Of a stretch of DNA of 64,000 bases, positions 299 through 24,454 are shown piece by piece. Source of the DNA: Dethiobacter sp. (GTDB lineage Bacteria; Bacillota; Dethiobacteria; Dethiobacterales; Dethiobacteraceae); the NCBI GenBank assembly GCA_020725465.1, contig DYEY01000074.1, positions 1-64,000 on the forward strand. The letters are read 5' to 3'. The notes under the pieces are model-generated. The model saw nothing but the letters and a program-made list of their open reading frames with translations, had not been told where the DNA came from and made no database searches. Position 1 is the stretch's first letter. Each line of letters starts with the position of its first letter. The translations under genes and the position numbers were made by a program.

Positions 299-1462
299 TT
301 GGGTGAAAAACGAAATCAATCAACGGGAAAAAACGTTGTGGTCGGTGTTTTTATTACAAAAAAACACGCGCAGGGCCTTATGACGATGAGTCAAAAGCTG
401 GTAAATACCCACCGGTATATTCGCTACATTGAGCTGGCTGAAGCTAACCGGGGCATGGATGTCACCCTTTATTTCTTCGCCACCGGAGACGCAGACTTTG
501 AAAAAAAATGCGTAAGGGGAATCTTTTACAATTACAGTGATGATACCTGGCAGCAAAAAATATTCCCACTCCCGCATCTGTTATATGACCGGGGAGGGGG
601 TACTTCCCGGCAATCAACGGGTGTAATCAAAAAGTTCAGGGAGCTGGGTATCAGAAATATTAACGCCCGGCATTATTTTGACAAGTGGGACCTGTTTGAC
701 CGGCTATCCGGAATTGAAACGGTTTCCCCACATTTGCCGGCTACTGTTAAAGGAGATAAATTCGACAATATTTTTCATATGCTGGACCGGTACGGCCACG
801 TATATGTAAAAACCCGCAGGGGAAGCTGCGGAACCGGGGTTATTCGTATTGAAAGAAATGGCCCTGACAGGCTCAGATATTATTATTCATATGGCGGCAG
901 GCTGTTTTCCGGAATAATTGCAAAACAGGAATTAGAGAAGATACTTAACCGCTTTTTTGCACACAAGCCGTTTATTGTTCAGGAACCTGTGGATCTTATA
1001 AAAAAAGACCAGTGCATAATTGATTTCCGCAGTGAAGTTCAAAAGAACAAAGACGGCCAGATTATGATCACCGGAACAACAGCACGTATCGGCAGGCTTT
1101 ATTCCCCGATTGCTTCTAATACCCATAAAGAGGACTATTATCCTGTTGAGAAGTTCCTGATGCAATTCGGCGCGCCAAGGTCAGACGTGCTGCAGGCAAA
1201 AATCAATGGCTTTCTGCTAACCGTATTTCGGGCCGTTGAGCAGGTTTACGGCTCGTTTGGCGAAATGGGCATAGATTTTGGCATGGATACAAAGGGGCAT
1301 CTTTGGTTGATTGAATGCAATTCCAAATCAGCCAAAGTTGCCCTGTATAATGCCTATGGCCGGCAAAAAGTAAGGGAATCATTCCGCAACCTGCTGCAAT
1401 ATGCGATTTTTCTGGTTCAAAGTCAAAACAGCAATAATACCCGGGAGAAGGTGCAACAGTAA
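299..1462 (+). CDS. YheC/YheD-family ATP-grasp protein (copy 1)
   Basis: A 387-residue ATP-grasp-fold protein of the YheC/YheD type, a family known in spore-forming Bacilli and Clostridia and linked there to the spore coat; the reaction is not established, but the fold joins a carboxylate to an amine at the cost of ATP. Seen here: an N-terminal domain opening with VVVGVFITKK, a glycine-rich ATP loop (SCGTGVIRIE) near residue 176, and the C-terminal metal/ATP signature GEMGIDFGMD...LIECNSKS at about 320-343 with the Glu and Asn expected to bind Mg. The TTG start is chosen because GGGAGTG lies just upstream. It is followed after one base by a paralogue, so the two are co-transcribed. The substrate cannot be told. 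Confidence 0.85.
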   Translation: MGEKRNQSTGKNVVVGVFITKKHAQGLMTMSQKLVNTHRYIRYIELAEANRGMDVTLYFFATGDADFEKKCVRGIFYNYSDDTWQQKIFPLPHLLYDRGGGTSRQSTGVIKKFRELGIRNINARHYFDKWDLFDRLSGIETVSPHLPATVKGDKFDNIFHMLDRYGHVYVKTRRGSCGTGVIRIERNGPDRLRYYYSYGGRLFSGIIAKQELEKILNRFFAHKPFIVQEPVDLIKKDQCIIDFRSEVQKNKDGQIMITGTTARIGRLYSPIASNTHKEDYYPVEKFLMQFGAPRSDVLQAKINGFLLTVFRAVEQVYGSFGEMGIDFGMDTKGHLWLIECNSKSAKVALYNAYGRQKVRESFRNLLQYAIFLVQSQNSNNTREKVQQ

Positions 1463-1463
1463 A

Positions 1464-2768
1464 ATGCCGGGACTGGAACCGGTTGTTCTCTTTTATGATC
1501 CTGAAAAAAGGGGCTGGCAGATCTGCTTAAATGAGCAAACTGAGGCCAGGCGTAAAAGGCTGTATTGGGGTATCCCGCTAACATGCGTCACCATGGCTGT
1601 TTGCAATAGTCCTCAGGTACCACTGGCGGCAGTGCCAATGAAAGCAAAGGTGGCCCTGGCGGACCGCCCGGTATTGGGGCCGCTGGTAGGTATATTAAGC
1701 GCTGAAAACCGGGACGGATCACTGAAAGGTAATTTCAGCAACTATAAGGCTATTATGCAGGCGGGACAAAAAATCGGTGGCATTGTTTTTGCGTTTACCC
1801 CAAGTGGCGTTAACTGGAAAAAGAGAGTTATCCGCGGATATATATTCGATAACAATAACAATAAATGGTTAACATGCTCTTTCCCCTTCCCTGACGTGGT
1901 GTATAACCGTATACAGGACCGAAACGAAGAAAACAAAAAAAGCAGCCAGTCATGTATACAGCGATTTTCTTCCTTCCCCGGAATTACGCTGTACAACCGT
2001 GGGTTTTTCAATAAAGAAGACATTATAAGAGTATTAAGCAAATCCTCCGGGATAAAAAAATATCTTCCCGAAACAAACGCACTGTTGTCGGAAAAGGACT
2101 TGGTTTACATGTTAAAACGGCATAAAGCGGTATATTTAAAGCCGGCAGACGACCGGTTAGGCTCAGGAATTATCCGTGTTGCAAAACAGCATTCATTAAA
2201 ACTGTATACGATGCATTATTATGCTGCTGGTAATGAATTGGCAAAATATAATACGCACAATGTTCAACGGTTATGGAAGAAGATTAGGCAGCAGATGATC
2301 CGGTCGCCTTACATCGTACAGCAGGCGGTCAACCTGGCCACTGTTTCCTCATGTCCGTTTGACTTTCGCGTGCTGGTTCAGAAAAACCGTCAGGGTCTCT
2401 GGAAAATATCAGGTCTGGGTATTCGCGTTGCCGGTCACTCTGAAGGTATCACCACCCATGTACCCAGGGGAGGGCGTATTGATAACCCTCAAAGCGTGCT
2501 GCCACAGGCCTTTCCATCGCAAAACCCTGCTTTAACAACACGGCGTGTAAAACGTTTATGCCTGGCGGTTGCCAAAAAACTGGAACAACAATACCGTCAT
2601 TTAGGTGAAATGAGTATTGATGTCGGGCTGGACCGTAATGGACGCCTGTGGATATTTGAAGCAAACGCCAAACCGATGAAATTCGATGAACCTGAAATCA
2701 GGGAAAAGCAACTTGAGCAAGTCATCCGCTATGCCCAGTTCCTGACATTTAACAAGATATTTCGATAA
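1464..2768 (+). CDS. YheC/YheD-family ATP-grasp protein (copy 2)
   Basis: A 434-residue paralogue of the gene ending at 1462. The ATG at 1464 is preferred over upstream in-frame codons because GGGAGAAGGTG sits right before it, overlapping the end of copy 1. It carries an N-terminal extension of about 70 residues beginning MPGLEPVVLFYDPEKRGW, which copies 1 and 4 lack, then the common N-domain (PLVGILSAEN), the ATP loop (RLGSGIIRVAK, near 231) and the signature GEMSIDVGLD...IFEANAKP at about 380-404. All expected catalytic residues look intact. The extension may make contacts special to this copy. Function inferred only from family; probably made during sporulation, though no sigma-E/G/K promoter was proven. 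Confidence 0.82.
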   Translation: MPGLEPVVLFYDPEKRGWQICLNEQTEARRKRLYWGIPLTCVTMAVCNSPQVPLAAVPMKAKVALADRPVLGPLVGILSAENRDGSLKGNFSNYKAIMQAGQKIGGIVFAFTPSGVNWKKRVIRGYIFDNNNNKWLTCSFPFPDVVYNRIQDRNEENKKSSQSCIQRFSSFPGITLYNRGFFNKEDIIRVLSKSSGIKKYLPETNALLSEKDLVYMLKRHKAVYLKPADDRLGSGIIRVAKQHSLKLYTMHYYAAGNELAKYNTHNVQRLWKKIRQQMIRSPYIVQQAVNLATVSSCPFDFRVLVQKNRQGLWKISGLGIRVAGHSEGITTHVPRGGRIDNPQSVLPQAFPSQNPALTTRRVKRLCLAVAKKLEQQYRHLGEMSIDVGLDRNGRLWIFEANAKPMKFDEPEIREKQLEQVIRYAQFLTFNKIFR

Positions 2769-2832
2769 TCCGCCAAACAGAAAAGCCCCCGCATACGGGA
2801 ACTCTCTTTCCGGCCCGGCTTAATGCCGGTTA

Positions 2833-4032
2833 TCAGGTATATTGCCTGCCACCGTCCCCGTCTGTGGCAATTTGTTCCTGACGCACGCCAGCCTCATCTG
2901 GCACTTCCGGCTGATATTTTTTTTTTGAGTACAACAGCTTGGCGTACTCCAGCGTCAACAGAAACTGCGGAGATATTCCCACGGTATCTTCAATCCTGTG
3001 TTCCGGCAACTTATCAGGTTTTGAATTTGCCTCCAACAGCCAGATCCCGCCGGTCTTATCCACAGCGATATCTATCCCGATTTCTCCGAAAGGGCCGAAT
3101 TCTTTTTCGATATAACGGGCGATTACCATGCAGGCCTCCTTTATTTTCCTGTCGCAGGGAATGCCGGGGTATCTTTTTTTTAAAGCAGGATAAATATCGC
3201 TGTAATTCATTACTTCTCCACCCAGTGAGACATTTGTTATTACCGCTCCTTTTTGTGCCAAGCGCGCCTGGTTGTAGACGGGACACCAGGCACCGTCTTT
3301 GTCTTTGACTATGAGTACACGCAAATCCAGCGGGCGGTTCTTATATTTGACCAGGCGGATCCCCTGCTGAAGAATCACCCGGTCAGGTTTAAGGCCTATA
3401 CATTTCATTTCTTGGGCCAAATTGTCCAAATTTTTTGCATAACGTTTCTGATGAGTGCCTTTGCTGTAATAACGGAAACAGAACCCCTGCTTACACTTTT
3501 CCAGGGCAAATACTTTTTTGCCGCCACTGCCACCGGAACTTTTCAGAAACAGATACCTGTATTTGAAAATCATTGCTCTGATGTGGTCCATGCCACGGCT
3601 ATAGATGGTTGCCGGCAAAAATTTTTTCACGGCCCTGTGCCTTGACAGCTTTTGATGGACCTGCCATTTTCTCAGTTTACAGCTGTTTATATGTTGAATA
3701 CCTGGAATTTTTTTAAAGCGGGCCCGCAGTGCCCTGGCTTCCGTTATTTCTTTGCCGGCCAGGCCGGCTCCCCGGTCATAAAAGATATCCGGAAACGGCA
3801 TCCGGCGCTCCAGCCATCGCTTGCCGCCGCTTTTTGACATATACCCCATGATTTCCTGTCTTTTCCAGTCAATGTTTTGCGAAGTAAAAAAATAAAGCGT
3901 ACACTTTGCCTTTTGGTTAGCCTGGATGAGCTTCCTGGCAAACATGGGTATCTTTCGTCTGCGTACAAATTTTTTTTTCACCAAGACGCCTATTAACGGC
4001 CTGGGATATGTTTTGGCGTCCTTTGGGTTCAC
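2833..4032 (-). CDS. YheC/YheD-family ATP-grasp protein (copy 3)
   Basis: A 399-residue member of the same family on the opposite strand, convergent with copies 1-2 and divergent from copy 4. The GTG start at 4032 is chosen because AAGGAG precedes it by nine bases; a longer in-frame reading reaches 4146 but has no such site and no homology to its sisters. The protein starts with a short polar tail, then PRPLIGVLVKKKFVRRRK, the ATP loop GGSGGKKVFALEK near 165 and GEIGIDIAVD...LLEANSKP near 315-338. The C-terminus has a poly-charged tail. Its inverted placement between close paralogues suggests local duplication followed by inversion. Confidence 0.84.
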   Translation of the reverse strand: MNPKDAKTYPRPLIGVLVKKKFVRRRKIPMFARKLIQANQKAKCTLYFFTSQNIDWKRQEIMGYMSKSGGKRWLERRMPFPDIFYDRGAGLAGKEITEARALRARFKKIPGIQHINSCKLRKWQVHQKLSRHRAVKKFLPATIYSRGMDHIRAMIFKYRYLFLKSSGGSGGKKVFALEKCKQGFCFRYYSKGTHQKRYAKNLDNLAQEMKCIGLKPDRVILQQGIRLVKYKNRPLDLRVLIVKDKDGAWCPVYNQARLAQKGAVITNVSLGGEVMNYSDIYPALKKRYPGIPCDRKIKEACMVIARYIEKEFGPFGEIGIDIAVDKTGGIWLLEANSKPDKLPEHRIEDTVGISPQFLLTLEYAKLLYSKKKYQPEVPDEAGVRQEQIATDGDGGRQYT

Positions 4033-4341
4033 CTCATTTGTCTCCTTTTCTTGCGCCGGACAGTATTGGGTTAAAGTAGCCGGCTGATGTAATATATTCG
4101 GACAGGTGTATATGAGTTCATCGGCTTTCCCAATATTGACCGGCATATTGAAAAGCAGGATGACCGTAAACCGGGGGAGGTTGATTTTTTCTCCATCAGG
4201 TATAACAATTTTCAGCTTTTCCGAATATACTACACCGTGTCAATACTGAGCGGGTTCAGGCACTGCCCTGTGAGGGCAGCATCAATCCGGGCTGATAATC
4301 TCTGGGAGATATAAACCAAAAAAAAAGGAGATCGTTTCACA
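4033..4341. promoter_or_regulatory. Divergent intergenic region between ATP-grasp copies 3 and 4
   Basis: About 310 bases separate the two divergent starts. The stretch contains the ribosome binding sites of both genes (AAGGAG at the left end on the minus strand, AAAGGAG at 4324-4330 on the plus strand). It must hold both promoters, but I do not see a clean sigma-A pair on either strand, which would fit use of a sporulation sigma factor; this last point is inference. Confidence 0.35.
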
Positions 4342-5475
4342 TTGCACGGTGACAAAGAGACTGCCCCAAGACCTGTAATGGCTGTGTTGGTAAAGAGTAA
4401 ATTTATATCGGATTTGCAAAAACAGGCGCCTGTCTCCCGGATCCGGCTGCTGGCAGAAGCGAACAACAAAGTTAAAAACATCCTTTACTTTTTTTCACTC
4501 AAGGATGTAAAGTTGAATGAACAAAAAATAACCGGTTACTATTGGCATAAAACAAAGAACAGGTGGCTGCGGAGAGACTTTTCATTTCCTGATATTTTAT
4601 ATATAAGATATGGAGTTGACAAAAGATTTACCCGGATTTTTGCAAAATTGTGCGATGCCATTACCGGGAATAACGGGAAACTGATTACGCATTATTGTTT
4701 TGACAAATGGAGGTTGTATCAGGTCATGAGCAAAGATCCGGTCCTGAAAAATTATCTGCCCATGACCAGGACGGTTAAGAAACGGGAACATATCAAAAAG
4801 ATGCTCCGGCGTTATCCGGTGGTTTATCTGAAAGCGCATATCGGCAGAAAAGGCGAAAATGTTTTGCGGGTGGAGGTTCTGCCCGGCGACAGTTACCGGT
4901 ACAGTTATTATCTGAACCAACAATTAACGGTAAGGACGGTATCCGGCTTTAAAGCTTTGATGAATGCGGTGTATAAGTTTTTCCGCGGTAAAAAGTTTTT
5001 GGTTCAGCAGGGCATCCAGCTTCTGAAATTTAACAACAGGCTTATCGATATGAGGGCGGAACTGCAGCGCAGGGGAGATGGAAGCCTGGATATAGTAGGC
5101 ATTTCAGTGCGGCACGGCAGGCCCGGCTCCCCCATAACCACCCACGGGGATGTTTCCAGATTTGACGATTTCTATATGAAAAATATGGGATACTCAAAAG
5201 AGCAGCTGCTAAAGTTTAAATACGCTGTTGAAAAGTTTCTGTTGGGGGTCTATGAATATATTGATAAATATTACGGCATGTACGCGGAAATCGGCATCGA
5301 TTTTGCGATTGACACCAGCAACAGAATCTGGTTTATAGAAGCGAATTCCCGCTCAACCCATGTATCCCTGAATAAGGCCTACGGCAAAGCGGCTCTTTAC
5401 AGGTACAACAGGAATATTCTGGAGTATGCCAGGTATCTGGCCAACAAAACAGGTAAAGATGTTACACCGGCATAG
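4342..5475 (+). CDS. YheC/YheD-family ATP-grasp protein (copy 4)
   Basis: A 377-residue ATP-grasp protein, closest in layout to copy 1. TTG start at 4342 with AAAGGAG eleven bases upstream. Seen: N-domain PRPVMAVLVKSKF, ATP loop GRKGENVLRVEV near 168, and AEIGIDFAID...FIEANSRS near 314-337. The internal segment KFLVQQGIQLL matches the VQ(E/Q)x(V/I)xL strand shared by all five copies in the window. It is followed by a strong factor-independent terminator, so the transcript ends before the aconitase gene. Enzymatic role unknown; family membership is clear. Confidence 0.85.
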   Translation: MHGDKETAPRPVMAVLVKSKFISDLQKQAPVSRIRLLAEANNKVKNILYFFSLKDVKLNEQKITGYYWHKTKNRWLRRDFSFPDILYIRYGVDKRFTRIFAKLCDAITGNNGKLITHYCFDKWRLYQVMSKDPVLKNYLPMTRTVKKREHIKKMLRRYPVVYLKAHIGRKGENVLRVEVLPGDSYRYSYYLNQQLTVRTVSGFKALMNAVYKFFRGKKFLVQQGIQLLKFNNRLIDMRAELQRRGDGSLDIVGISVRHGRPGSPITTHGDVSRFDDFYMKNMGYSKEQLLKFKYAVEKFLLGVYEYIDKYYGMYAEIGIDFAIDTSNRIWFIEANSRSTHVSLNKAYGKAALYRYNRNILEYARYLANKTGKDVTPA

Positions 5476-10977: not shown

Positions 10978-11133
10978 ATGAAGTCATCTCCTTTGCTATT
11001 GAAAAACATACCTTTTGGCTTCTATAAAAAATCTGATTTTCCTGTCACTGCAGCGAAATATTGTTATGGTTTGACAGCCATTGCGCCACAGTTGTACCTC
11101 ACAGGCTTTAAGTTAAATTAAAGGAGCATGCCG

Positions 11134-12195
11134 ATGCCGACTATTGATCTCCTGCGGGACCGGATACTGCTGATCCCATACCTTGGCGGGGTCTTTCCGG
11201 CGGTGGAAAAGGAACTGGACAGGTGGCGCAGAGTGGCCTGCAGCATGTCTGATCCGGAATTGTCCCGCCAGGCGCTGGCCAGCATCGGCCAAAAGCGCTT
11301 TCACTGTCAGGGGGGAGCGGTTTTTGCCCTCTACAGTAAAAAAAGCCGTGGGCTCATTCCTTTTATAGTGGCACTGCAGACCATCAGCGATTATCTGGAC
11401 AACCTGTCGGACCGCGTGAGCCAGCCGGGTGAAGAGGGCCTTTTTGCCCTGCATGAAGCAATGGTGGCGGCGGTGGATACCGAATTGCCGTTTAGCGACT
11501 GGTACCGTTATTATCCTCACCGGGAAGACAGCGGTTACCTTAAAGCCCTGGTGCAGACCTGCCGTAACTCCCTGGTTCCCATGGTAACATACAGTGATGT
11601 AAGTGGCGAAGTGGTTCGGCTGGCTGCCCTGTACAGTGAATTACAGGTCTTCAAACATCTAGCCCGCCCAGAGCGGGAAGAGCGGTTGCAGCGGTGGTAT
11701 GACCGGCATTCCGGAATGGCGCCGGGTACCCGGTGGTGGGAATTTGCCGCTGCCTGCGGTTCAACGCTGGGCATTTTCGCCCTTATGGCCCTTGCGTCGG
11801 CCGGGCCGGTCAGCCAGTCTGAAGCAGAGCAGTTGCTGGACTGCTATTTCCCCTGGCTGTGCGGGCTCCATATTCTGCTTGACTATTATCTGGACCTGGA
11901 TGAAGACCGGGAACACGGCGACCTGAACTTTGTTTCATATTACCGTTCTCCGCGGGAAGCGGTAAGCGGGCTGCTCTGGTTCCTGGAGGAGGCTGACCGC
12001 CGGGTACGGCAGCTGCCCCGCCCTTCTTTTCATCAAATGGTGGTAAAAGGATTGCTGGCCATGTACCTGTCAGACCCCAAGGCATACCTGGGAGGGCGCA
12101 AAAAAATGACGCAGCTTTTGTTGCGCCGGGGAGGCACCGGGGTGTTGGCCATGCACCGTTTTTGCCTGGCATTGCGCGGTATGGGCAAACTGTAA
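11134..12195 (+). CDS. ytpB: Tetraprenyl-beta-curcumene synthase-like terpene cyclase (YtpB/DUF2600)
   Basis: A 353-residue member of the DUF2600 family. B. subtilis YtpB turns heptaprenyl diphosphate (C35) into tetraprenyl-beta-curcumene, the precursor of sesquarterpenes in spores. Seen: the first acidic motif DYLDNLSDR near 85 and the second DYYLDLDEDRE near 249, both typical of this enzyme class rather than of classical DDxxD cyclases. The second of two close ATG codons (11134) is chosen because AAGGAG then has a seven-base spacing. It is convergent with, and two bases away from, a long-chain prenyl diphosphate synthase gene, which could supply its substrate. Confidence 0.85.
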   Translation: MPTIDLLRDRILLIPYLGGVFPAVEKELDRWRRVACSMSDPELSRQALASIGQKRFHCQGGAVFALYSKKSRGLIPFIVALQTISDYLDNLSDRVSQPGEEGLFALHEAMVAAVDTELPFSDWYRYYPHREDSGYLKALVQTCRNSLVPMVTYSDVSGEVVRLAALYSELQVFKHLARPEREERLQRWYDRHSGMAPGTRWWEFAAACGSTLGIFALMALASAGPVSQSEAEQLLDCYFPWLCGLHILLDYYLDLDEDREHGDLNFVSYYRSPREAVSGLLWFLEEADRRVRQLPRPSFHQMVVKGLLAMYLSDPKAYLGGRKKMTQLLLRRGGTGVLAMHRFCLALRGMGKL

Positions 12196-12197
12196 AT

Positions 12198-13169
12198 TCA
12201 GTGCTGCCGGTTGAGAACATGATCCGCCAGACGGGAGAGGAAGGCTCTCTCCGGTACGGCGGGAAGGCGGGCGAGGTTTTGCTTGGCCCGCATGAGCAAG
12301 AGGCTGGCCTTTCGCCTGACATCGTCCAGTATCCCGGTAGATTCCAGCGCCGCCCTGACATAATCCATGTTTGCAGCGGAAAAATCCCTTTCCTCTATCA
12401 GCCGGCGCAGGAAAGGACCGTGACTGTGGGTGCGCAAAAGACGTATTACCGGCAAAGTGAGGTATCCTTCCGCCAGGTCGTGCAGCACAGGCTTCCCGGT
12501 CACTTCACCGGTGCCGCAGTAATCCAGCAGGTCGTCGGTCAGTTGAAAGGCGTAGCCCAGCTGGAGCCCGAAGGCGGTGATGTGCCTCTGGTATACTGGT
12601 GAAAGGCCGCAGACTTCAGCGCCCGCCAGGCAGCAGGAGGACAGAAAGAAGGCGGTCTTTTTGTGCACATAAGCCATATAGTCCGCTTCTGTGAGGTTGC
12701 AGTCAAAACGCAGGGCTGACTGTTCCATTTCCCCTTCGCACATCAGGCTGATGGCCCGGGTCATATTGGCGAGGATACCGGTTTGCCCGTGCTGTGTCAA
12801 CAGGGCGAAGGCCCGTGCAAACAGGAAATCACCATAAAGCACCGCCTGGTGGTTCCCAAAGCGGGCGGAAATGGTGGGAATACCTCTCCTGTGCCCGGCA
12901 TGGTCGATGATGTCGTCGTGGACCAGGGAGGCAGTATGGATAAGTTCCACGGCGGTGGCCACGTCCACCAGCTCGGCACGGGGTGCGGGAGCAAAAGAAC
13001 CAAACAAAATAACCAGAGCCGGGCGCAGCCTTTTGCCGCCCTGCAGGACTGCGGAAAAAACCGGAGTCTGGCTGTCATTTCCCCGGCAGATCTCGTGCAG
13101 GCGCGCTTCCACCTGTTTTAGGGCCTCAAGCCCTTTCGTCCCGTATATGGGGAGCTTAACTAACGTCAA
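12198..13169 (-). CDS. Polyprenyl diphosphate synthase, heptaprenyl-type catalytic subunit
   Basis: A 323-residue trans-prenyltransferase. Seen: GGKRLRPALV (allylic substrate binding), the first Asp-rich motif HDDIIDHAGHRRG, YGDFLFARAF, GKPVLHDL and the second Asp-rich motif QLTDDLLDYCG. It extends farnesyl diphosphate with isopentenyl diphosphate to a long chain; chain length is not readable, but quinone side chains or the C35 substrate of the neighbouring YtpB-like cyclase are the plausible uses. In Bacillus the HepT subunit needs a small partner HepS, not seen here. TTG at 13169 has AAGGTGAT six bases upstream; GTG at 13178 is the alternative start. Confidence 0.88.
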   Translation of the reverse strand: MTLVKLPIYGTKGLEALKQVEARLHEICRGNDSQTPVFSAVLQGGKRLRPALVILFGSFAPAPRAELVDVATAVELIHTASLVHDDIIDHAGHRRGIPTISARFGNHQAVLYGDFLFARAFALLTQHGQTGILANMTRAISLMCEGEMEQSALRFDCNLTEADYMAYVHKKTAFFLSSCCLAGAEVCGLSPVYQRHITAFGLQLGYAFQLTDDLLDYCGTGEVTGKPVLHDLAEGYLTLPVIRLLRTHSHGPFLRRLIEERDFSAANMDYVRAALESTGILDDVRRKASLLLMRAKQNLARLPAVPERAFLSRLADHVLNRQH

Positions 13170-13303
13170 AAATATCACCTTAGGTCTTACTTAAAACTAG
13201 CGTGACCTAACAGGCGGAAAAATATTCCCTCTGGCATGGTACGGGCAGGAGACAGGGAGGATAAGTCGAAAACATAAACCCAGCAAACAGGAGGGGTGAT
13301 ACA

Positions 13304-16822: not shown

Positions 16823-18670
16823 ATGCCGGAAGATATCCTGACGGTGCCTGACGAGTCAACGAGACGGGAGACGCTGCTTTTAACCGGAAACGAATATTTG
16901 TCGTTTCCTGAGATACTGCCGCGGGACGGCTCGCTCCGGACTCTGAATGTCCTGCACATGGGTACGGCTGGGCTGATTGAATTTGCCGGCCCGCAAAGGA
17001 AACCGTTGCTTCGGCCTTATTTCTGTTTACAGGGGCAGGAAATACAGCCTGCCAAGGTATGGAGCTACCGTCACCACTGGCTGCCTACTTTTACCGCCGC
17101 CGCCAGAGCGCTGAAAATCAGGGGAACCGTCTTTGCTCCGCCGGGGCACCGCGGTGGTATTTACCTGCTGGAACTGGATAACCTGGACACCGCTCCGGCG
17201 GAAGTGGAAGCGGGCTTTATTGTTGAGTGGGGGGAAGTATACCACCATATTTTCAGGCCGCGCCAAATAGCCGGCGCCAGGGAGGCTGCCTTTGACCCCT
17301 GGACCGGGACGCTTCTCCTGGAAGCGGGAGGGGGTCTGCCCCTGGTCAGCCTGGCCCTGGGCTTTGACGATGGCCGTCAATGGGAGTGGCAGCAAACACC
17401 GGAAGCGGTACGGGCCTGTGCAGTAAAGAAGCTGACTCTTGGCCCCAGGCAAAAGGCGGCACTGCCGCTCTACCTGGCTGTAAACCGGGAGGGAAGCGGC
17501 GCCGGTACCACAGTTACAGACCTGCGCCGGCACGGCTTTGCTTCTCTTCTGGCAGAAACGGAGAACTGGCTTGCGGCGCGAAAAATCTATCTCAGCGCAC
17601 ATGAAGCGCTTGCCAACCGCAACCTGTTTTTCAATCTTTTTTTTGCCACCGGCCGCGCCATCGATACGGATGACACGGTTCCTGTAACTTCCCGCAGCCC
17701 CCGTTATTATGTCAGTGCCGCTTTCTGGTCCCGGGACACACTGCTTTGGAGCCTTCCTGGGCTGCTGCTGGCCTGCCCGGCAACCGCGAGGCGGGTACTG
17801 CTGGCTGTGTTCGGGCGCCACCTGGATAAGGCGGGGGAGCACGCCCATTATATCAATGGTGTCTTGTTATATCCCGGCTTTGAACTTGACCAGCTGGCTG
17901 CCTATGTGCTGGCCCTTAAAAACTATCTGGCTGCCACCGGGGACAGGACAATTTTAAGGGAATCCCTGGTCAAAAAGGGCCTGACTGGGGTAGCTGGAAA
18001 ACTGCTGGCTCAAAAAGACAGCGAAACCGGTCTTTTTGCCACGTTTCTTGATCCCTCCGACGACCCGGTGAAATATCCCTTTCTGATTTATAATAATGTC
18101 CTGGCGCTAAAGGCGCTGGAATTTCTCTCCGGACTGCAAAGGGAAGGAAGCTGGCGGTACAGGCCAACCCTGGCCCGACAGGCCGCCGCCCTGCACAAAG
18201 CCATCTGCAGGCACGGAATAGTTGAAGGCCCTTACGGCCCTATGTTTGCTTATGCGGTGGACGGGAGAGGCAACTTCCAGTTATATGACAACCCGCCGGG
18301 CAGCCTGCAGCTGCTTGCCCATTACGGCTTCTGCCGGCCGGACGAGCCGACTTTTGTCAATACGGTGCGCTGGATTCACTCCAGCCATAATGAATACTAC
18401 CATGGCACCGGGGACATCCGGGCAGCGGCCTCACGTCACTCTCCCAATCCCTGGCCAATGTCGGCAGCCAATGACCTCCTGGCCCTGAACATCAACCGGG
18501 GCCGGTTATTCCGGCTTGCTCCCATGGACAGCGGTTTTTGCTGTGAAACGGTAAATCCCGGTTCCGGCTGGGCTTCCACCGGCCATGCCTTTGCCACTGC
18601 CGCAGGCTTTCTGGCGTTTTCTCTCTGGCATGCCTTCAGGAAAAACAAGCAGGGAGGAGAGAAAAGATAA
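16823..18670 (+). CDS. Six-hairpin glycosidase (glycogen-debranching / GH63-GH125-like)
   Basis: A 615-residue protein with an N-terminal beta-sandwich part (to about 270) and a C-terminal (alpha/alpha)6 barrel. The barrel entry ALANRNLFFNLFFATGR and the block SAAFWSRDTLLWSLPG (near 295, with a candidate catalytic Asp) followed by GFELDQLAAYVLAL resemble the amylo-alpha-1,6-glucosidase and GH125/GH63 families. No signal peptide is seen, so it should act in the cytosol on an imported oligosaccharide. The next gene, a GPH-type sugar symporter, overlaps its stop by one base (TAATG), implying coupled translation. Exact linkage specificity is not readable. Confidence 0.7.
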   Translation: MPEDILTVPDESTRRETLLLTGNEYLSFPEILPRDGSLRTLNVLHMGTAGLIEFAGPQRKPLLRPYFCLQGQEIQPAKVWSYRHHWLPTFTAAARALKIRGTVFAPPGHRGGIYLLELDNLDTAPAEVEAGFIVEWGEVYHHIFRPRQIAGAREAAFDPWTGTLLLEAGGGLPLVSLALGFDDGRQWEWQQTPEAVRACAVKKLTLGPRQKAALPLYLAVNREGSGAGTTVTDLRRHGFASLLAETENWLAARKIYLSAHEALANRNLFFNLFFATGRAIDTDDTVPVTSRSPRYYVSAAFWSRDTLLWSLPGLLLACPATARRVLLAVFGRHLDKAGEHAHYINGVLLYPGFELDQLAAYVLALKNYLAATGDRTILRESLVKKGLTGVAGKLLAQKDSETGLFATFLDPSDDPVKYPFLIYNNVLALKALEFLSGLQREGSWRYRPTLARQAAALHKAICRHGIVEGPYGPMFAYAVDGRGNFQLYDNPPGSLQLLAHYGFCRPDEPTFVNTVRWIHSSHNEYYHGTGDIRAAASRHSPNPWPMSAANDLLALNINRGRLFRLAPMDSGFCCETVNPGSGWASTGHAFATAAGFLAFSLWHAFRKNKQGGEKR

Positions 18671-19989
18671 TGGCCAGGAAACTGCCGCTTCACGGTAAAA
18701 TTCTCTATGCGGCTTCATCGGCGGGTTGGGCCATGACAGACAGGATAGTGGTGACCTGGCTGTTGTTCTACTACGTTTCGGCGGAAGGAGGCGGGCCCTT
18801 CCTTGGTTCCCTGGCGTTCGGAAGCGTAATGATCCTGGGCAGGGTGGTAGACGCCGTTGCTGACCCGCTGGTAGCTCTCTGGTCGGATAATTTCCGTGGC
18901 CGGCTTGGCCGCCGCATGCCGTTTTTGCTGGCCGGTGGTATGCTTTATGTGGCGGTGTTTATTGCCCTCTTTCATCCACCTGCCGCCGCTCCGGGTATCA
19001 TTAATGCCGTCTACCTGACGGTCCTTACCGGCGCTTATTACTTTTTCTTTACGGTTTATGTCTGCCCCTACCTGGCCCTGATGCCGGAGCTGGCACGCAC
19101 ACCGGACGACCGGGTTGACTTGGCTACGCTGCGGGCGGTTTTTTCGCTCCTGGGTGTGGCCGCGGCCCTGGTCGGTTCCGGCCGGCTGATCGGCAGTTTG
19201 GGTTTTTCCGGCATGGTGCTGGGCATGGGCCTGTCCGGCATGCTTTTAATGTACCTGCCGGCGCTGATAAAGGAAAAAGATTATGCCAGCGCCGAACCTG
19301 CCAGCCTGGGACTGGTGGAGGCGATAACCACTACCTTAAAAAACCAGGCGTTTCGCATTTACCTGGCCGGCAATGCCACCTTTTGGTTCGGCTTTAATAT
19401 AGTCACTCTGGGGCTGCCTTTTTACGTGACCGTCTTGCTCAGCCTTGACAAGGAAGCAACTTCCATCTTTTTTGCCGCCACCTTCGGTGTGGCCGTGCTT
19501 TGTTTCCCGCTGGTCAATATCCTGGCCAAAAGAATTGGCCACAAAGCAGTGATGCTGGGTTCACTGTTTCTGTTTGTGCTGGTGTTGCCCTGTTTCTTTT
19601 TCCTCGGCCGGCCGCTGTTTTGCCTTTCCTCCTACAGCTTTGCCATGCTGCTGTTAGCTTTGGCCGGGGTGCCGCTGTCCAGCCTGTTTGTGCTTCCGGA
19701 TGCCATGGTGGCTTCCATAACCGACCTGGAGGAAGGCCTGTCCGGGCAACGGCGCGAGGCCATGTATTTTGGCACCCAGGGGCTGGTGCTGAAGGTGGTT
19801 TTGGGCCTTTCCACCTTTGTAACCGGCGTGATACTGCAGATCTTCGGCAGCACCGCCGCTACCCCGCTGGGTGTCAGGCTGACCGGGGTTGTGGCTGCTT
19901 TCTTTGTGCTGATTGGATTTTTTATCTTTCTTCGTTACCCGGAAAAAGAAGTGCTGGCTCCCGCCGGGTCAAAAAACGCCTCCATTTAA
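18670..19989 (+). CDS. GPH-family sugar:cation symporter (MFS)
   Basis: A 439-residue transporter with twelve predicted membrane helices. The early block GRVVDAVADPLVALWSDN is the hallmark of the glycoside-pentoside-hexuronide:cation symporters such as MelB, where the aspartates couple Na+ or H+ to sugar uptake; GRRMPFLLAGG follows in the next loop. It begins inside the stop of the glycosidase gene, so the pair probably imports and cleaves one glycoside. The 3' end overlaps the convergent nitrilase-family gene by four bases. Confidence 0.82.
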   Translation: MARKLPLHGKILYAASSAGWAMTDRIVVTWLLFYYVSAEGGGPFLGSLAFGSVMILGRVVDAVADPLVALWSDNFRGRLGRRMPFLLAGGMLYVAVFIALFHPPAAAPGIINAVYLTVLTGAYYFFFTVYVCPYLALMPELARTPDDRVDLATLRAVFSLLGVAAALVGSGRLIGSLGFSGMVLGMGLSGMLLMYLPALIKEKDYASAEPASLGLVEAITTTLKNQAFRIYLAGNATFWFGFNIVTLGLPFYVTVLLSLDKEATSIFFAATFGVAVLCFPLVNILAKRIGHKAVMLGSLFLFVLVLPCFFFLGRPLFCLSSYSFAMLLLALAGVPLSSLFVLPDAMVASITDLEEGLSGQRREAMYFGTQGLVLKVVLGLSTFVTGVILQIFGSTAATPLGVRLTGVVAAFFVLIGFFIFLRYPEKEVLAPAGSKNASI

Positions 19990-21053
19990 CCCGGAGCCCC
20001 GCGCCGTAAAAATCCGGGTTTGCTTCTGTCATAGATTGAGGGGAAATACCTGCGTTCCAGCTCCGGGTTCCTGTCGCCCAGGTAAGGATGGTTTGCCCGC
20101 AGCTCCTGCAGTGCTTCCAGGTCCAGTTCCGCGGTGACCAGGGCTTCCCGGTCATGTCCGGGCGCCTCCGCCAGCACGCCGTCGCGGCCCGGCGTCAGTT
20201 CCAGCGGAGCGAACACTCCCGCTTTTCCGGTAAAAGGCTCACCCAGGAACTCCCCGACCAGTGCCGCTTTTATGCCGTAGACCAGGCTCTCCTGAACTCT
20301 GGGCCAGATCCCCCGCAAAGCCAGCCAGCAGTTATACCGCTGCGGGTCGGCAATGGGCAGCATCACGATTTCCGCCCCTTTGGCGGACAGTATGCGGAAA
20401 GTTTCAAAATAGGTGGCGTCCATGCAAACCGGCATGGCCAGCCGGCCCAGTCCGGTTTCACAGACCTCAAACCTGTGGCCGGCGGAAAGCCCTTCCTTGT
20501 GTTCCCGCAGGGTCAGGTGTATCTTGTCTTGGCTGCCGAGCAGTGTGCCGTCAGGGGCAAAAAGGACGGCCCGGTTGGTTACACGGTCCCCTGTGGCGGT
20601 GGGAAAACTGCCCGCCATGATATAAATGCCATATTCCCCGGCCAGGCGGGAAAAAACGGTATAGGCGAACTGTACAAAAGGCGGGGCCAGGAAGAATAAA
20701 AGGTCAAGTATTTTGTGCTTAAAAGCCGTGCCTCCGCCGTCATCGCCCAGGCTCATTGACTCAATTCCGGGCAGAAGACCAAAGAGCTGGTTATAGTTAT
20801 ATTCGGGGAAGACAAGTAGCTGCACGCCCAGTCCGGAGGCTTCCCTGACAAACCCGTGCATTTCTTCCACATAATCCAGCGGGTTTTTTACCAGTTTTAT
20901 CCTGACCTGGGCTGCCCCCACCCTGACGTGCCGCCGGTCAATCCGGAACGGTTTGCCGGACCGGATTTTTTGCCCTTTAAGGAATTTTTCTACCAGGGAA
21001 GGTCTGGTCCGCCAGTACAGGTGCTTTAAAAACAATTTTTCCCTAAAATTCAT
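19986..21053 (-). CDS. Carbon-nitrogen hydrolase (nitrilase superfamily), catalytic residues intact
   Basis: A 355-residue nitrilase-superfamily enzyme that hydrolyses an amide or nitrile C-N bond. The full Glu-Lys-Cys triad is present: E84 in LLVFPEYNYN, K177 in SQDKIHLT and C210 in LAMPVCMDATYF. There is an N-terminal extension of about 40 basic residues before the first strand VRVGAAQV. GGGGAGG seven bases upstream sets the ATG at 21053. The start lies inside the end of the upstream paralogue (11-base overlap), so both are made from one message. Substrate unknown; no ammonia-channel or glutaminase partner domain is seen. Confidence 0.82.
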   Translation of the reverse strand: MNFREKLFLKHLYWRTRPSLVEKFLKGQKIRSGKPFRIDRRHVRVGAAQVRIKLVKNPLDYVEEMHGFVREASGLGVQLLVFPEYNYNQLFGLLPGIESMSLGDDGGGTAFKHKILDLLFFLAPPFVQFAYTVFSRLAGEYGIYIMAGSFPTATGDRVTNRAVLFAPDGTLLGSQDKIHLTLREHKEGLSAGHRFEVCETGLGRLAMPVCMDATYFETFRILSAKGAEIVMLPIADPQRYNCWLALRGIWPRVQESLVYGIKAALVGEFLGEPFTGKAGVFAPLELTPGRDGVLAEAPGHDREALVTAELDLEALQELRANHPYLGDRNPELERRYFPSIYDRSKPGFLRRGAPG

Positions 21054-21921
21054 TTTCACGCCTCCCCCCGTAGAGTTCACCGTAAGCAGCGGGGTTAAGC
21101 AGTTCCATGAGAGGATAGCCTGCTATAACCTGCTTGCGCAACCCGTTAGCCAAAACCGCGGCAACCGGCTTTCCGTCCGTTCCCCCCCTGCTTAAAATTC
21201 CCGTATAATTCTCCGTCATCTCACATGGTGCATGAACCAGTGATTCGGCACTGAATTCGGTACCAGCAATGCGGCCCACCAGCTGGCTTTCCACGCAGAA
21301 GAACTGGTTTTGCTGTACCTGCTGCCACATACCGGCCAGCTGCCGCCACCTGTTTTCCCCGGCAGCTTCCATAGCTCCGCAGTGGCAGACGATTTCCGCG
21401 CCTTTCAGGGCCAAGATACGCCCCACTTCCGGGTACCAGGCATCAGTCCCCACCATCATGGCGACCTTCCCCAGTTCGGTGGGGAAAACCCGGGCATCGT
21501 CGCCCCGTATCAATCCCCATTGCCTCTCCTGCCGGGAAAGGTAAAGCTGTTCCTGGTATCCTGCCAGCTCGCCCCGGGGGGAGAACAGGCAGGCGACGTG
21601 GCTTATTCCCCGTTCACCGGGTAAAAAATCCGTTCCCGCCACCAGGTATACGGAAAAATCAGCGGCCAGGCTGGCATGAAGCTGCCGGAAGTCTTCGTGC
21701 CAACTGCCGGGAAGCAGCAAAAATGCTGACAGTGATTCTGCCAGGGTTCCCGGGTTTCCCAGTTCCCCCCACCGGTAGGCTGCCAGCAGGGCCAGCCAGG
21801 CCGGCAGTACCACCAGCTGTACTTTGCCTTTTTCCGCCTGCAGGTTTTTTTTAAGGCAGGCCAGATACTCTCCGGGAGAGGAAAACCTGCAGCCCGCCAG
21901 GCTCAGGGCTGCTGCCTTCAT
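21043..21921 (-). CDS. Nitrilase-superfamily paralogue lacking the catalytic triad
   Basis: A 292-residue protein that aligns along its length with the next gene. All three catalytic positions are changed: Glu to Ala41 (LVVLPAWLAL in place of LLVFPEYNYN), Lys to Gln125 (YQEQLYLS in place of SQDKIHLT) and Cys to Gly158 (AMMVGTDAWYP in place of AMPVCMDATYF), while surrounding structural residues (RILALKGAEIV) are kept. It should therefore fold but not hydrolyse. ATG at 21921 is used since AAAGGGATGTG lies before it; the reading frame extends further upstream to 22008 without support. A regulatory or scaffolding partner of the intact enzyme is likely. Confidence 0.78.
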   Translation of the reverse strand: MKAAALSLAGCRFSSPGEYLACLKKNLQAEKGKVQLVVLPAWLALLAAYRWGELGNPGTLAESLSAFLLLPGSWHEDFRQLHASLAADFSVYLVAGTDFLPGERGISHVACLFSPRGELAGYQEQLYLSRQERQWGLIRGDDARVFPTELGKVAMMVGTDAWYPEVGRILALKGAEIVCHCGAMEAAGENRWRQLAGMWQQVQQNQFFCVESQLVGRIAGTEFSAESLVHAPCEMTENYTGILSRGGTDGKPVAAVLANGLRKQVIAGYPLMELLNPAAYGELYGGRRENEF

Positions 21922-22886: not shown

Positions 22887-23633
22887 ATGCATCCTTATCA
22901 GATAGTACGCAGTAAGATGGCGAAAATAAGCGTTTTGACTGCAGACCCGGAACTGGCCTGCTATGTACCGAAATCTGTTGTTTTTTCTGCGGAAACGCTT
23001 AAAGAAATGCTAAGAGTCTATAATTACGTTTATGTTAAACCCGATTATGGCAGGGGCGGCAAAAGGGTAATCTCTGTGGCTTCGGAAGATTCTGAGCATT
23101 ATAGGGTTCATTATAAAGCTGAGATAATGACCGGCAAAACATTTGAAGAAACTGCTTCCTATATTGACAGGGTGGCTGCAGGAGACCGCTTTCTCATCCA
23201 GCAGGGCATATACCTGCAATGTGTCAATGATTTACCTTTTGATTTAAGGGTAAATGTGCAGAAACCTTACAGTAAATGGGAAGTAACCGCCATGATTGCC
23301 AAGTTAGCGGCACCGGGTAATGCCGTTACCAATTACAGCTCCGGGGGAACCCTGGTTGATGTAACTGAAACACTTCTGGCAGCAGGTTATGATGATGTTA
23401 AAATCCAAAAAATAATTGCCTTATTTATTGAGTTGGGTGAGAAAACCGCCTCTGCTCTGAGTAAAAGGTACCCTAATCTGAGAGAGTTGGGGTTGGATAT
23501 TGCCCTTGACCTTAATGACAGGCCTTGGATCCTCGAGGTTAACACGTCTCCCCAGCTACCGCGGGGACTGCACCGGAAGTTTGATAACTATCGCCGCATC
23601 ATACGGCGTAATACTTATAAAACCATAACCTGA
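22887..23633 (+). CDS. Short YheC/YheD-type ATP-grasp protein (copy 5)
   Basis: A 248-residue relative of the four proteins at the left of the window, lacking their first ~115 residues. It enters directly at the region SKMAKISVLTADPELACYVPKS and keeps the ATP loop (GRGGKRVISV near 54), RFLIQQGIYL near 100 and the metal signature RELGLDIALD...ILEVNTSP near 198-221. So the ATP-grasp core is complete but the N-terminal domain is missing: either a genuine minimal form or a truncated gene. The spacing of GGGGAG to the ATG is rather long (13 bases). Surroundings are A/T-rich like those of the other copies. Confidence 0.75.
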   Translation: MHPYQIVRSKMAKISVLTADPELACYVPKSVVFSAETLKEMLRVYNYVYVKPDYGRGGKRVISVASEDSEHYRVHYKAEIMTGKTFEETASYIDRVAAGDRFLIQQGIYLQCVNDLPFDLRVNVQKPYSKWEVTAMIAKLAAPGNAVTNYSSGGTLVDVTETLLAAGYDDVKIQKIIALFIELGEKTASALSKRYPNLRELGLDIALDLNDRPWILEVNTSPQLPRGLHRKFDNYRRIIRRNTYKTIT

Positions 23634-23772: not shown

Positions 23773-24168
23773 TCAGACTGTCCAGCTTTCTGTCTTGAGG
23801 TTGGAAATATCATTAAAATGTTTATCCCTGGAAGCCAGTATTAATGAATGTTGTTTTGCTACTGCGGCAATCCATACATCATTTTCAGGAATCAGCTTAC
23901 CTTTGTTCTTTAGCTCTCTTTTTATTTCTCCGTAAAACAGCGCCGTTATACTGTCACAAGGCATTACAGGGAAATCAGATGAGAAATCTCTGATAATTTT
24001 TATATTTTCATTGTGCCTTTCTGATTTTAATGCACCGTAGTATAATTCACCCAAAGCTATTGATGGTATAAGAACTTCACCGGCCCAATGAAGGTGTTTT
24101 TGTATAACGGTGTCTCCCTGGAAAATTCCAATTATTATATTCGTATCAAGCAGGTATCTACCACTCAT
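23773..24168 (-). CDS. vapC: VapC-type PIN-domain toxin
   Basis: A 131-residue PIN-domain ribonuclease. The acidic residues of the Mg site are all visible: D in YLLDTNIIIGIF (near 8), E in IALGELYYGA (near 43), D in PENDVWIAAVA (near 97) and D in LASRDKHF (near 115). Such toxins cut tRNA or other RNA when freed from the antitoxin. It overlaps the upstream antitoxin gene by 11 bases, the usual VapBC arrangement. Expressed from the promoter at 24485-24513. Confidence 0.9.
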   Translation of the reverse strand: MSGRYLLDTNIIIGIFQGDTVIQKHLHWAGEVLIPSIALGELYYGALKSERHNENIKIIRDFSSDFPVMPCDSITALFYGEIKRELKNKGKLIPENDVWIAAVAKQHSLILASRDKHFNDISNLKTESWTV

Positions 24169-24454
24169 TTACATCAACCTGTCCACACCCATTTTCAATA
24201 GCTTCTTTTATTTGTTCCAGGCTTTTATCATCAATTGCTCTGGAGAATTTCAGCAATTCTTTTCCTGGCACTCCTTGGGGATTTAGCAGATTATTGCGTT
24301 TTTCCTCTTCTTTTTTTAATCTGTAAACAGCGACCATTTCCCTGAAAAGTTCGCTTTTTGTCATCTTTTCTCTTTTTGCATAGCTTATTACCTCCTCATA
24401 AATCTCAGGAGGAACGGAGAAACCGATTACTTTAGTTGTTCTGCCAGTCACCAT
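24158..24454 (-). CDS. vapB: Ribbon-helix-helix antitoxin (VapB/CopG-like)
   Basis: A 98-residue protein whose first ~45 residues (TTKVIGFSVPPEIYEEV...KREKMTKSELFREMV) match the ribbon-helix-helix fold that binds operator DNA as a dimer; the acidic C-terminal tail should wrap and block the PIN toxin. ATG at 24454. It overlaps vapC by 11 bases. Upstream lie two 10-bp-spaced copies of GTTTAACT (24465 and 24475) and a strong promoter, which fits autoregulation by the toxin-antitoxin complex. Confidence 0.85.
   Translation of the reverse strand: MVTGRTTKVIGFSVPPEIYEEVISYAKREKMTKSELFREMVAVYRLKKEEEKRNNLLNPQGVPGKELLKFSRAIDDKSLEQIKEAIENGCGQVDVNEW

Follow-up and report, generated by a model that had tools for sequence, protein, structure and literature searches.

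The locus described here raises the question of what a protein that has kept an enzyme fold and lost its catalytic residues does beside an intact paralogue. Several enzyme families are well known to have pseudoenzyme subunits; members of the nitrilase superfamily are normally homo-oligomers. In the window, that is, the whole stretch of Dethiobacter sp. DNA analysed (64,000 nucleotides), two nitrilase-superfamily proteins, A and B, are encoded as follows.

21043..21921, stop codon included, (-) strand: A, a triad-less nitrilase-superfamily paralogue of 292 aa, with its ATG at 21921.
19986..21053, stop codon included, (-) strand: B, a nitrilase-superfamily hydrolase of 355 aa with intact E84-K177-C210 and E184, and with its ATG at 21053.
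21043..21053, (-) strand: overlap of 11 bases between the end of A and the start of B.

Reading the open reading frames confirmed the coordinates and the overlap given in the preliminary description. The ATG of B is consistent with its relatives, and an 11-base overlap is also found at loci L036/L007, L037 and L056. On the A-B alignment, the residues opposite E84, K177 and C210 of B were A41, Q125 and G158 of A, exactly as numbered in that description. Both proteins matched the Pfam CN_hydrolase family (PF00795; 42.6 bits for A and 70.1 bits for B, curated cut-off 23.2), accounting for two of the four such matches in the whole genome, and this shared annotation masks the difference between them. 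Attempts to identify the enzyme through NCBIfam equivalogs (nitrilase, AguB, and deaminated glutathione amidase) or through PDB relatives were rejected, as nothing was close: neither protein reached an equivalog cut-off, the best score being 69.7 bits where 500 is required.

The single-chain AlphaFold models of A and B both have the alpha-beta-beta-alpha fold of nitrilases. The model of A is a complete nitrilase fold (mean pLDDT 88.1) whose best PDB matches are nitrilase-superfamily enzymes (E 1e-19). The model of B (pLDDT 81) likewise matches nitrilase-superfamily structures best and carries two additional helices at its N-terminus and another, long one at residues 110-141. Conservation in A is highest in the stretch AGMWQQVQQNQ, which is modelled as a helix and aligns with an equally conserved helix of B, LRGIWPRVQES.

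The pair recurs widely. In a first search of 60 relatives, A had a match in 40 genomes and a clear orthologue in approximately 28. At the loci read out, B directly followed A, with overlaps or short gaps, wherever the contig continued, except in genome G008. Using profiles of A and B, we then surveyed 299 genomes sampled across the phylum and obtained 56 strong B loci, spread over about 29 clostridia-related families. At 53 of these, A lay within 1.5 kb on the same contig; the remaining three B genes start less than 340 bases from a contig end. Named carriers include Dethiobacter sp. (L056) and Petroclostridium sp. X23 (L062). A chance pairing was rejected, as dozens of genomes carry this pair and show this loss. 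The exceptions are few. Genus g9 has A without detectable B (G008, with a fragment in G015), so A can occur apart from B; the g9 copy at L042:9328-10131 also has a shortened C-terminus. Family f31 carries an additional, divergent A+B-type pair in which catalytic residues have been lost from both proteins (L144 and L145; partly in L127), with the following B-type triads.

L145:3242-5184: divergent f31 pair, B-type triad P-Q-P.
L144:2904-4863: divergent f31 pair, B-type triad T-K-A.
L127:1916-3848: divergent f31 pair, B-type triad P-K-C.

In genome G083, a divergent pair sits beside a normal one (L100). At L146, B has Gly in place of the catalytic Cys. The f31 pair, with its damaged B-type partner, indicates that the module can be kept when this catalysis is gone, and its sequences make a double-pseudoenzyme pair possible. 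Taken together, these departures (g9, f31, and L146) indicate that A, or the assembly, can remain after catalysis is lost.

Residue counts were based on an alignment of more than 70 loci, two of which are near-copies of others. In B, the triad was retained at essentially every scorable locus: Glu in 69/70, Lys in 71/71, and Cys in 71/71. In A, by contrast, the Lys site was occupied by Gln in 71 of 72 aligned loci, Glu was lost in 67/71 (replaced by Ala, Gly, Pro, Ser, Gln, or Arg), and Cys was lost in 68/74 (replaced by Gly, Ala, or Ser). Glu and Cys were thus kept in 4/71 and 6/74 loci, respectively, and the triad loss is strict for the lysine only. None of the A orthologues at the more than 70 aligned loci had a complete Glu-Lys-Cys triad. 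E132 of A, which corresponds to the second tetrad glutamate of nitrilases, was conserved in 67/72 A sequences, and residues that are invariant and specific to A include Q125, D160, R168, Q203, N205, and E211. Based on these A-specific residues and the conserved loss, the site in A has undergone a specific alteration and not random erosion.

Five of the Cys-keeping A proteins (L093-L095, L097, and L103) form a group that carries the motif CEDAWYPE and is basal in the A tree; all have Gln at the Lys site and Ala at the Glu site. The sixth, L046, is a scattered member whose Cys looks like a single change. As the Cys-keeping group branches near the base of A, the change of Lys to Gln apparently predates the loss of Cys. 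This deepest order of loss, Lys first and Cys later, fits the trees, in which the branches it depends on have moderate support.

In the trees, A formed one clade (SH-aLRT 99) and B another (97), and the A+B group was set apart from single nitrilases with a support of 92; single nitrilases with an intact triad, such as the paralogue at L001, fell outside it. A is a member of the nitrilase superfamily by fold and descent, without the status of an active enzyme. Distances within A and within B were correlated over 66 loci (0.89, against a permuted maximum of 0.13), which shows co-inheritance and not, by itself, contact. For species pairs with usable dS, dN/dS was 0.08-0.28 for A and 0.06-0.18 for B. 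The preliminary description had proposed that A is a non-catalytic subunit; in keeping with this, the aligned A orthologues neither retained the triad nor showed decay, and the loss is conserved and under purifying selection across some 29 families. A is a functional pseudoenzyme in the sense that its catalytic residues are gone and its gene is under purifying selection. The stop codons in a few A matches were considered as damage and rejected: they are the genes' own ends, overrun by the aligner. A pseudogene or sequencing artefact was likewise rejected, based on the conserved loss pattern and dN/dS.

Natural fusions join the two proteins directly. Four loci, L093, L094, L095, and L096, encode A and B as domains of a single open frame of 734-834 codons (734 at L095). 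The frame at L118:325-3558 has 1078 codons and combines B with a GH125-like domain; A lies immediately upstream of it. When neighbouring genes have fused in different lineages, the usual Rosetta-stone reading is that their products share a complex or pathway.

We propose, at a probability of roughly two in three, that A and B would constitute a nitrilase-superfamily heteromer of ancient origin, one partner an enzyme and the other a pseudoenzyme, that acts in glycoside metabolism. They would be two subunits of one hydrolase, in which B would perform the chemistry using its Glu-Lys-Cys triad. A would be the ancient paralogue that has kept the fold, with a near-invariant Gln in place of the catalytic Lys and with Glu and Cys gone, and should on account of these changes be unable to hydrolyse. 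Most likely, A would occupy on B the position of the second subunit in the usual nitrilase homodimer, where it may shape, stabilise, or gate the entrance to the active site of B; it may also bind a ligand in its own altered pocket. Dimers are universal in the nitrilase family, and in N-carbamoylputrescine amidohydrolase the partner subunit of the dimer fences the entrance to the active site (PMC4812014), which makes it plausible that a dead partner shapes or gates a live site. The pair would most likely act on an amide, N-acyl, or nitrile group borne by a sugar derivative that the GPH-type transporter and the GH125-like glycosidase encoded nearby handle. A narrower version of this proposal is that the pair represents an ancient, near-obligate class of heteromers in Bacillota, with the triad-less subunit, its invariant Gln at the catalytic Lys site, as a ligand-sensing or active-site-completing partner for an amide-bearing glycoside; we advance it tentatively, at somewhat less than even odds.

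The link to glycosides comes from the genes next to the pair.

18670..19989, (+) strand: MFS_2/GPH-type sugar:cation symporter (PF13347, 174.9 bits), the convergent neighbour of the pair.
16823..18670, (+) strand: GH125-like glycosidase of 615 aa (PF06824, 81.1 bits over residues 399-552).

The profile of GH125, a family of exo-alpha-mannosidases, matches over only some 150 residues of the latter protein, hence "GH125-like", and the analysis yielded no substrate for it. Among 50 loci compared, many of them shortened by contig ends, a GH125-like homologue lay beside the pair in 31 and an MFS_2/GPH homologue in 17. Six loci (L108, L113, L116, L123, L125, and L126) have a PIG-L type deacetylase between the pair and the GH125-like gene, a neighbour that suggests chemistry on N-acetylated sugars. 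A GH125-like gene was present in 46 of the 299 genomes, 42 with B and four without, and 14 genomes with B had no GH125-like gene at the threshold used (Fisher p 2e-34 for co-occurrence, related genomes not being independent). In genomes with an A-B fusion, the GH125-like gene, where found, sits on another contig, so the association with B does not arise from linkage alone. Overall, the gene context suggests that the substrate is an amide or N-acyl compound derived from a sugar; the label "amidase" for B, as used in the preliminary description, is a guess.

The same context can be read differently. The heteromer could be real and have a role outside glycoside metabolism; its neighbours, the transporter and the GH125-like gene, would then be passengers of a conserved neighbourhood. 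The separate contigs in the A-B fusion genomes and the different neighbours of the Petroclostridium pair fit such a history, and the 14 of 56 B genomes without a detected GH125-like gene count against a glycoside role. Nevertheless, B and a GH125-like domain are fused at L118, and the co-occurrence holds for unlinked genes; we regard passengers as rather unlikely.

Unlikely, too, is that A works in the same pathway as B but outside any complex with it, as an enzyme or ligand-binding protein in its own right that uses the invariant Gln, Glu132, and Asp160, with adjacency reflecting co-regulation only. The invariant A-specific residues lie in and around the former active site, so this pocket is not neutral, and G008 has A without B. 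Together with the g9 exception, the f31 pair with both partners damaged also counts against a heteromer, and congruent trees are expected from co-inheritance. Against a free-standing A are the A-B fusions, the near-perfect co-occurrence, and the construction of nitrilases from dimers (PMC4812014). The fusions, the 53/56 adjacency, and the congruent trees give a shared assembly of A and B strong, if indirect, support.

It is highly improbable that some A proteins are still catalytic. This would have the basal Cys-keeping group, with CEDAWYPE and the conserved second Glu, perform transfer or slow hydrolysis, and the fusions contain two active sites. The basal motif does include the Cys; however, the whole group has Gln for Lys and Ala for Glu, Cys is absent from most A proteins, and that of L046 looks like a single change. 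Finally, that A is a functionless, decaying duplicate of B has next to no chance: the loss of three catalytic residues would itself fit, but the frames are open in the sampled genomes, dN/dS is low, A is one clade over some 29 families, and it has invariant residues of its own.

If the enzyme-pseudoenzyme heteromer is real, the pair would amount to a phylum-wide natural experiment, in which A occurs at differing stages of loss (Gln with Cys retained, Gln with Glu retained, and all lost) and to which the second pair, with both proteins apparently dead, would also belong. The natural A-B fusions could fix a one-to-one ratio of the subunits. The pair would further suggest that Bacillota have an uncharacterised pathway for sugar-linked amides, to which the transporter and glycosidase offer handles.

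Several other genes in the window were noted. Four YheC/D-like ATP-grasp genes are clustered at 299-5475, and a fifth, at 22887-23633, lies beside the nitrilase pair; this family is tied to spore coats. Based on such spore-type genes elsewhere in the window, a link of the pair to sporulation was considered and dropped: Spo0A is found in 257 of the 299 sampled genomes, which makes its presence uninformative. A DUF2600 protein (404 bits) is encoded at 11128-12195, adjoining a polyprenyl-diphosphate-synthase-like open reading frame at 12198-13178 on the (-) strand. At 23773-24454, (-) strand, a PIN-domain gene is preceded by a small open reading frame, a candidate antitoxin, and the two are likely to be a VapBC-type pair.

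The closest solved relatives of both chains, by sequence and fold, are nitrilase-superfamily amidases: PH0642 (1j31), the Helicobacter pylori enzyme (6mg6), and N-carbamoylputrescine amidohydrolase (5h8i). B shares with them the E-K-C triad and the second Glu and differs in an N-terminal extension of about 40 residues and in a long helix that precedes the Lys; A differs in being without the triad. Heteromeric nitrilases have been described in sorghum as NIT4A/NIT4B1 and NIT4A/NIT4B2 (PMC5154151). There, two paralogous nitrilases make up one enzyme, as we propose for A and B. Neither plant paralogue is known to lack the triad, whereas here one partner is without it across the entire lineage. 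In the mycobacterial Lnt homologue BCG_2279c (Rv2262c-2261c), the catalytic Cys is changed to Ser and a contributive role has been suggested (PMC3850990). Like A, this protein and Streptomyces Lnt2 are superfamily paralogues in which a catalytic residue has changed; unlike A, Lnt is a membrane acyltransferase with a single residue changed and with no adjacent, fused, or phylum-wide pair. The preliminary description had known of no non-catalytic subunit in this superfamily. In its narrower form this stood, as no conserved subunit without the triad turned up in a literature search, which is weak evidence given the partial coverage of the search; in its broader form it has to be qualified, given the sorghum heteromers and the Cys-less Lnt homologue. 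What we propose as new is an enzyme-pseudoenzyme heteromer, a known kind of assembly, in a superfamily for which that search returned no conserved case. In trypanosomal S-adenosylmethionine decarboxylase and its prozyme, a dead paralogue activates the live one as a heterodimer. The fold and chemistry are unrelated to those of A and B, for which an activation of B by A would be hypothetical. Finally, NitFhit is a Rosetta-stone fusion of Nit and Fhit that points to a partner (PMC9913352); it and the A-B fusions both involve nitrilase-superfamily proteins, and differ in that Fhit is no nitrilase paralogue.
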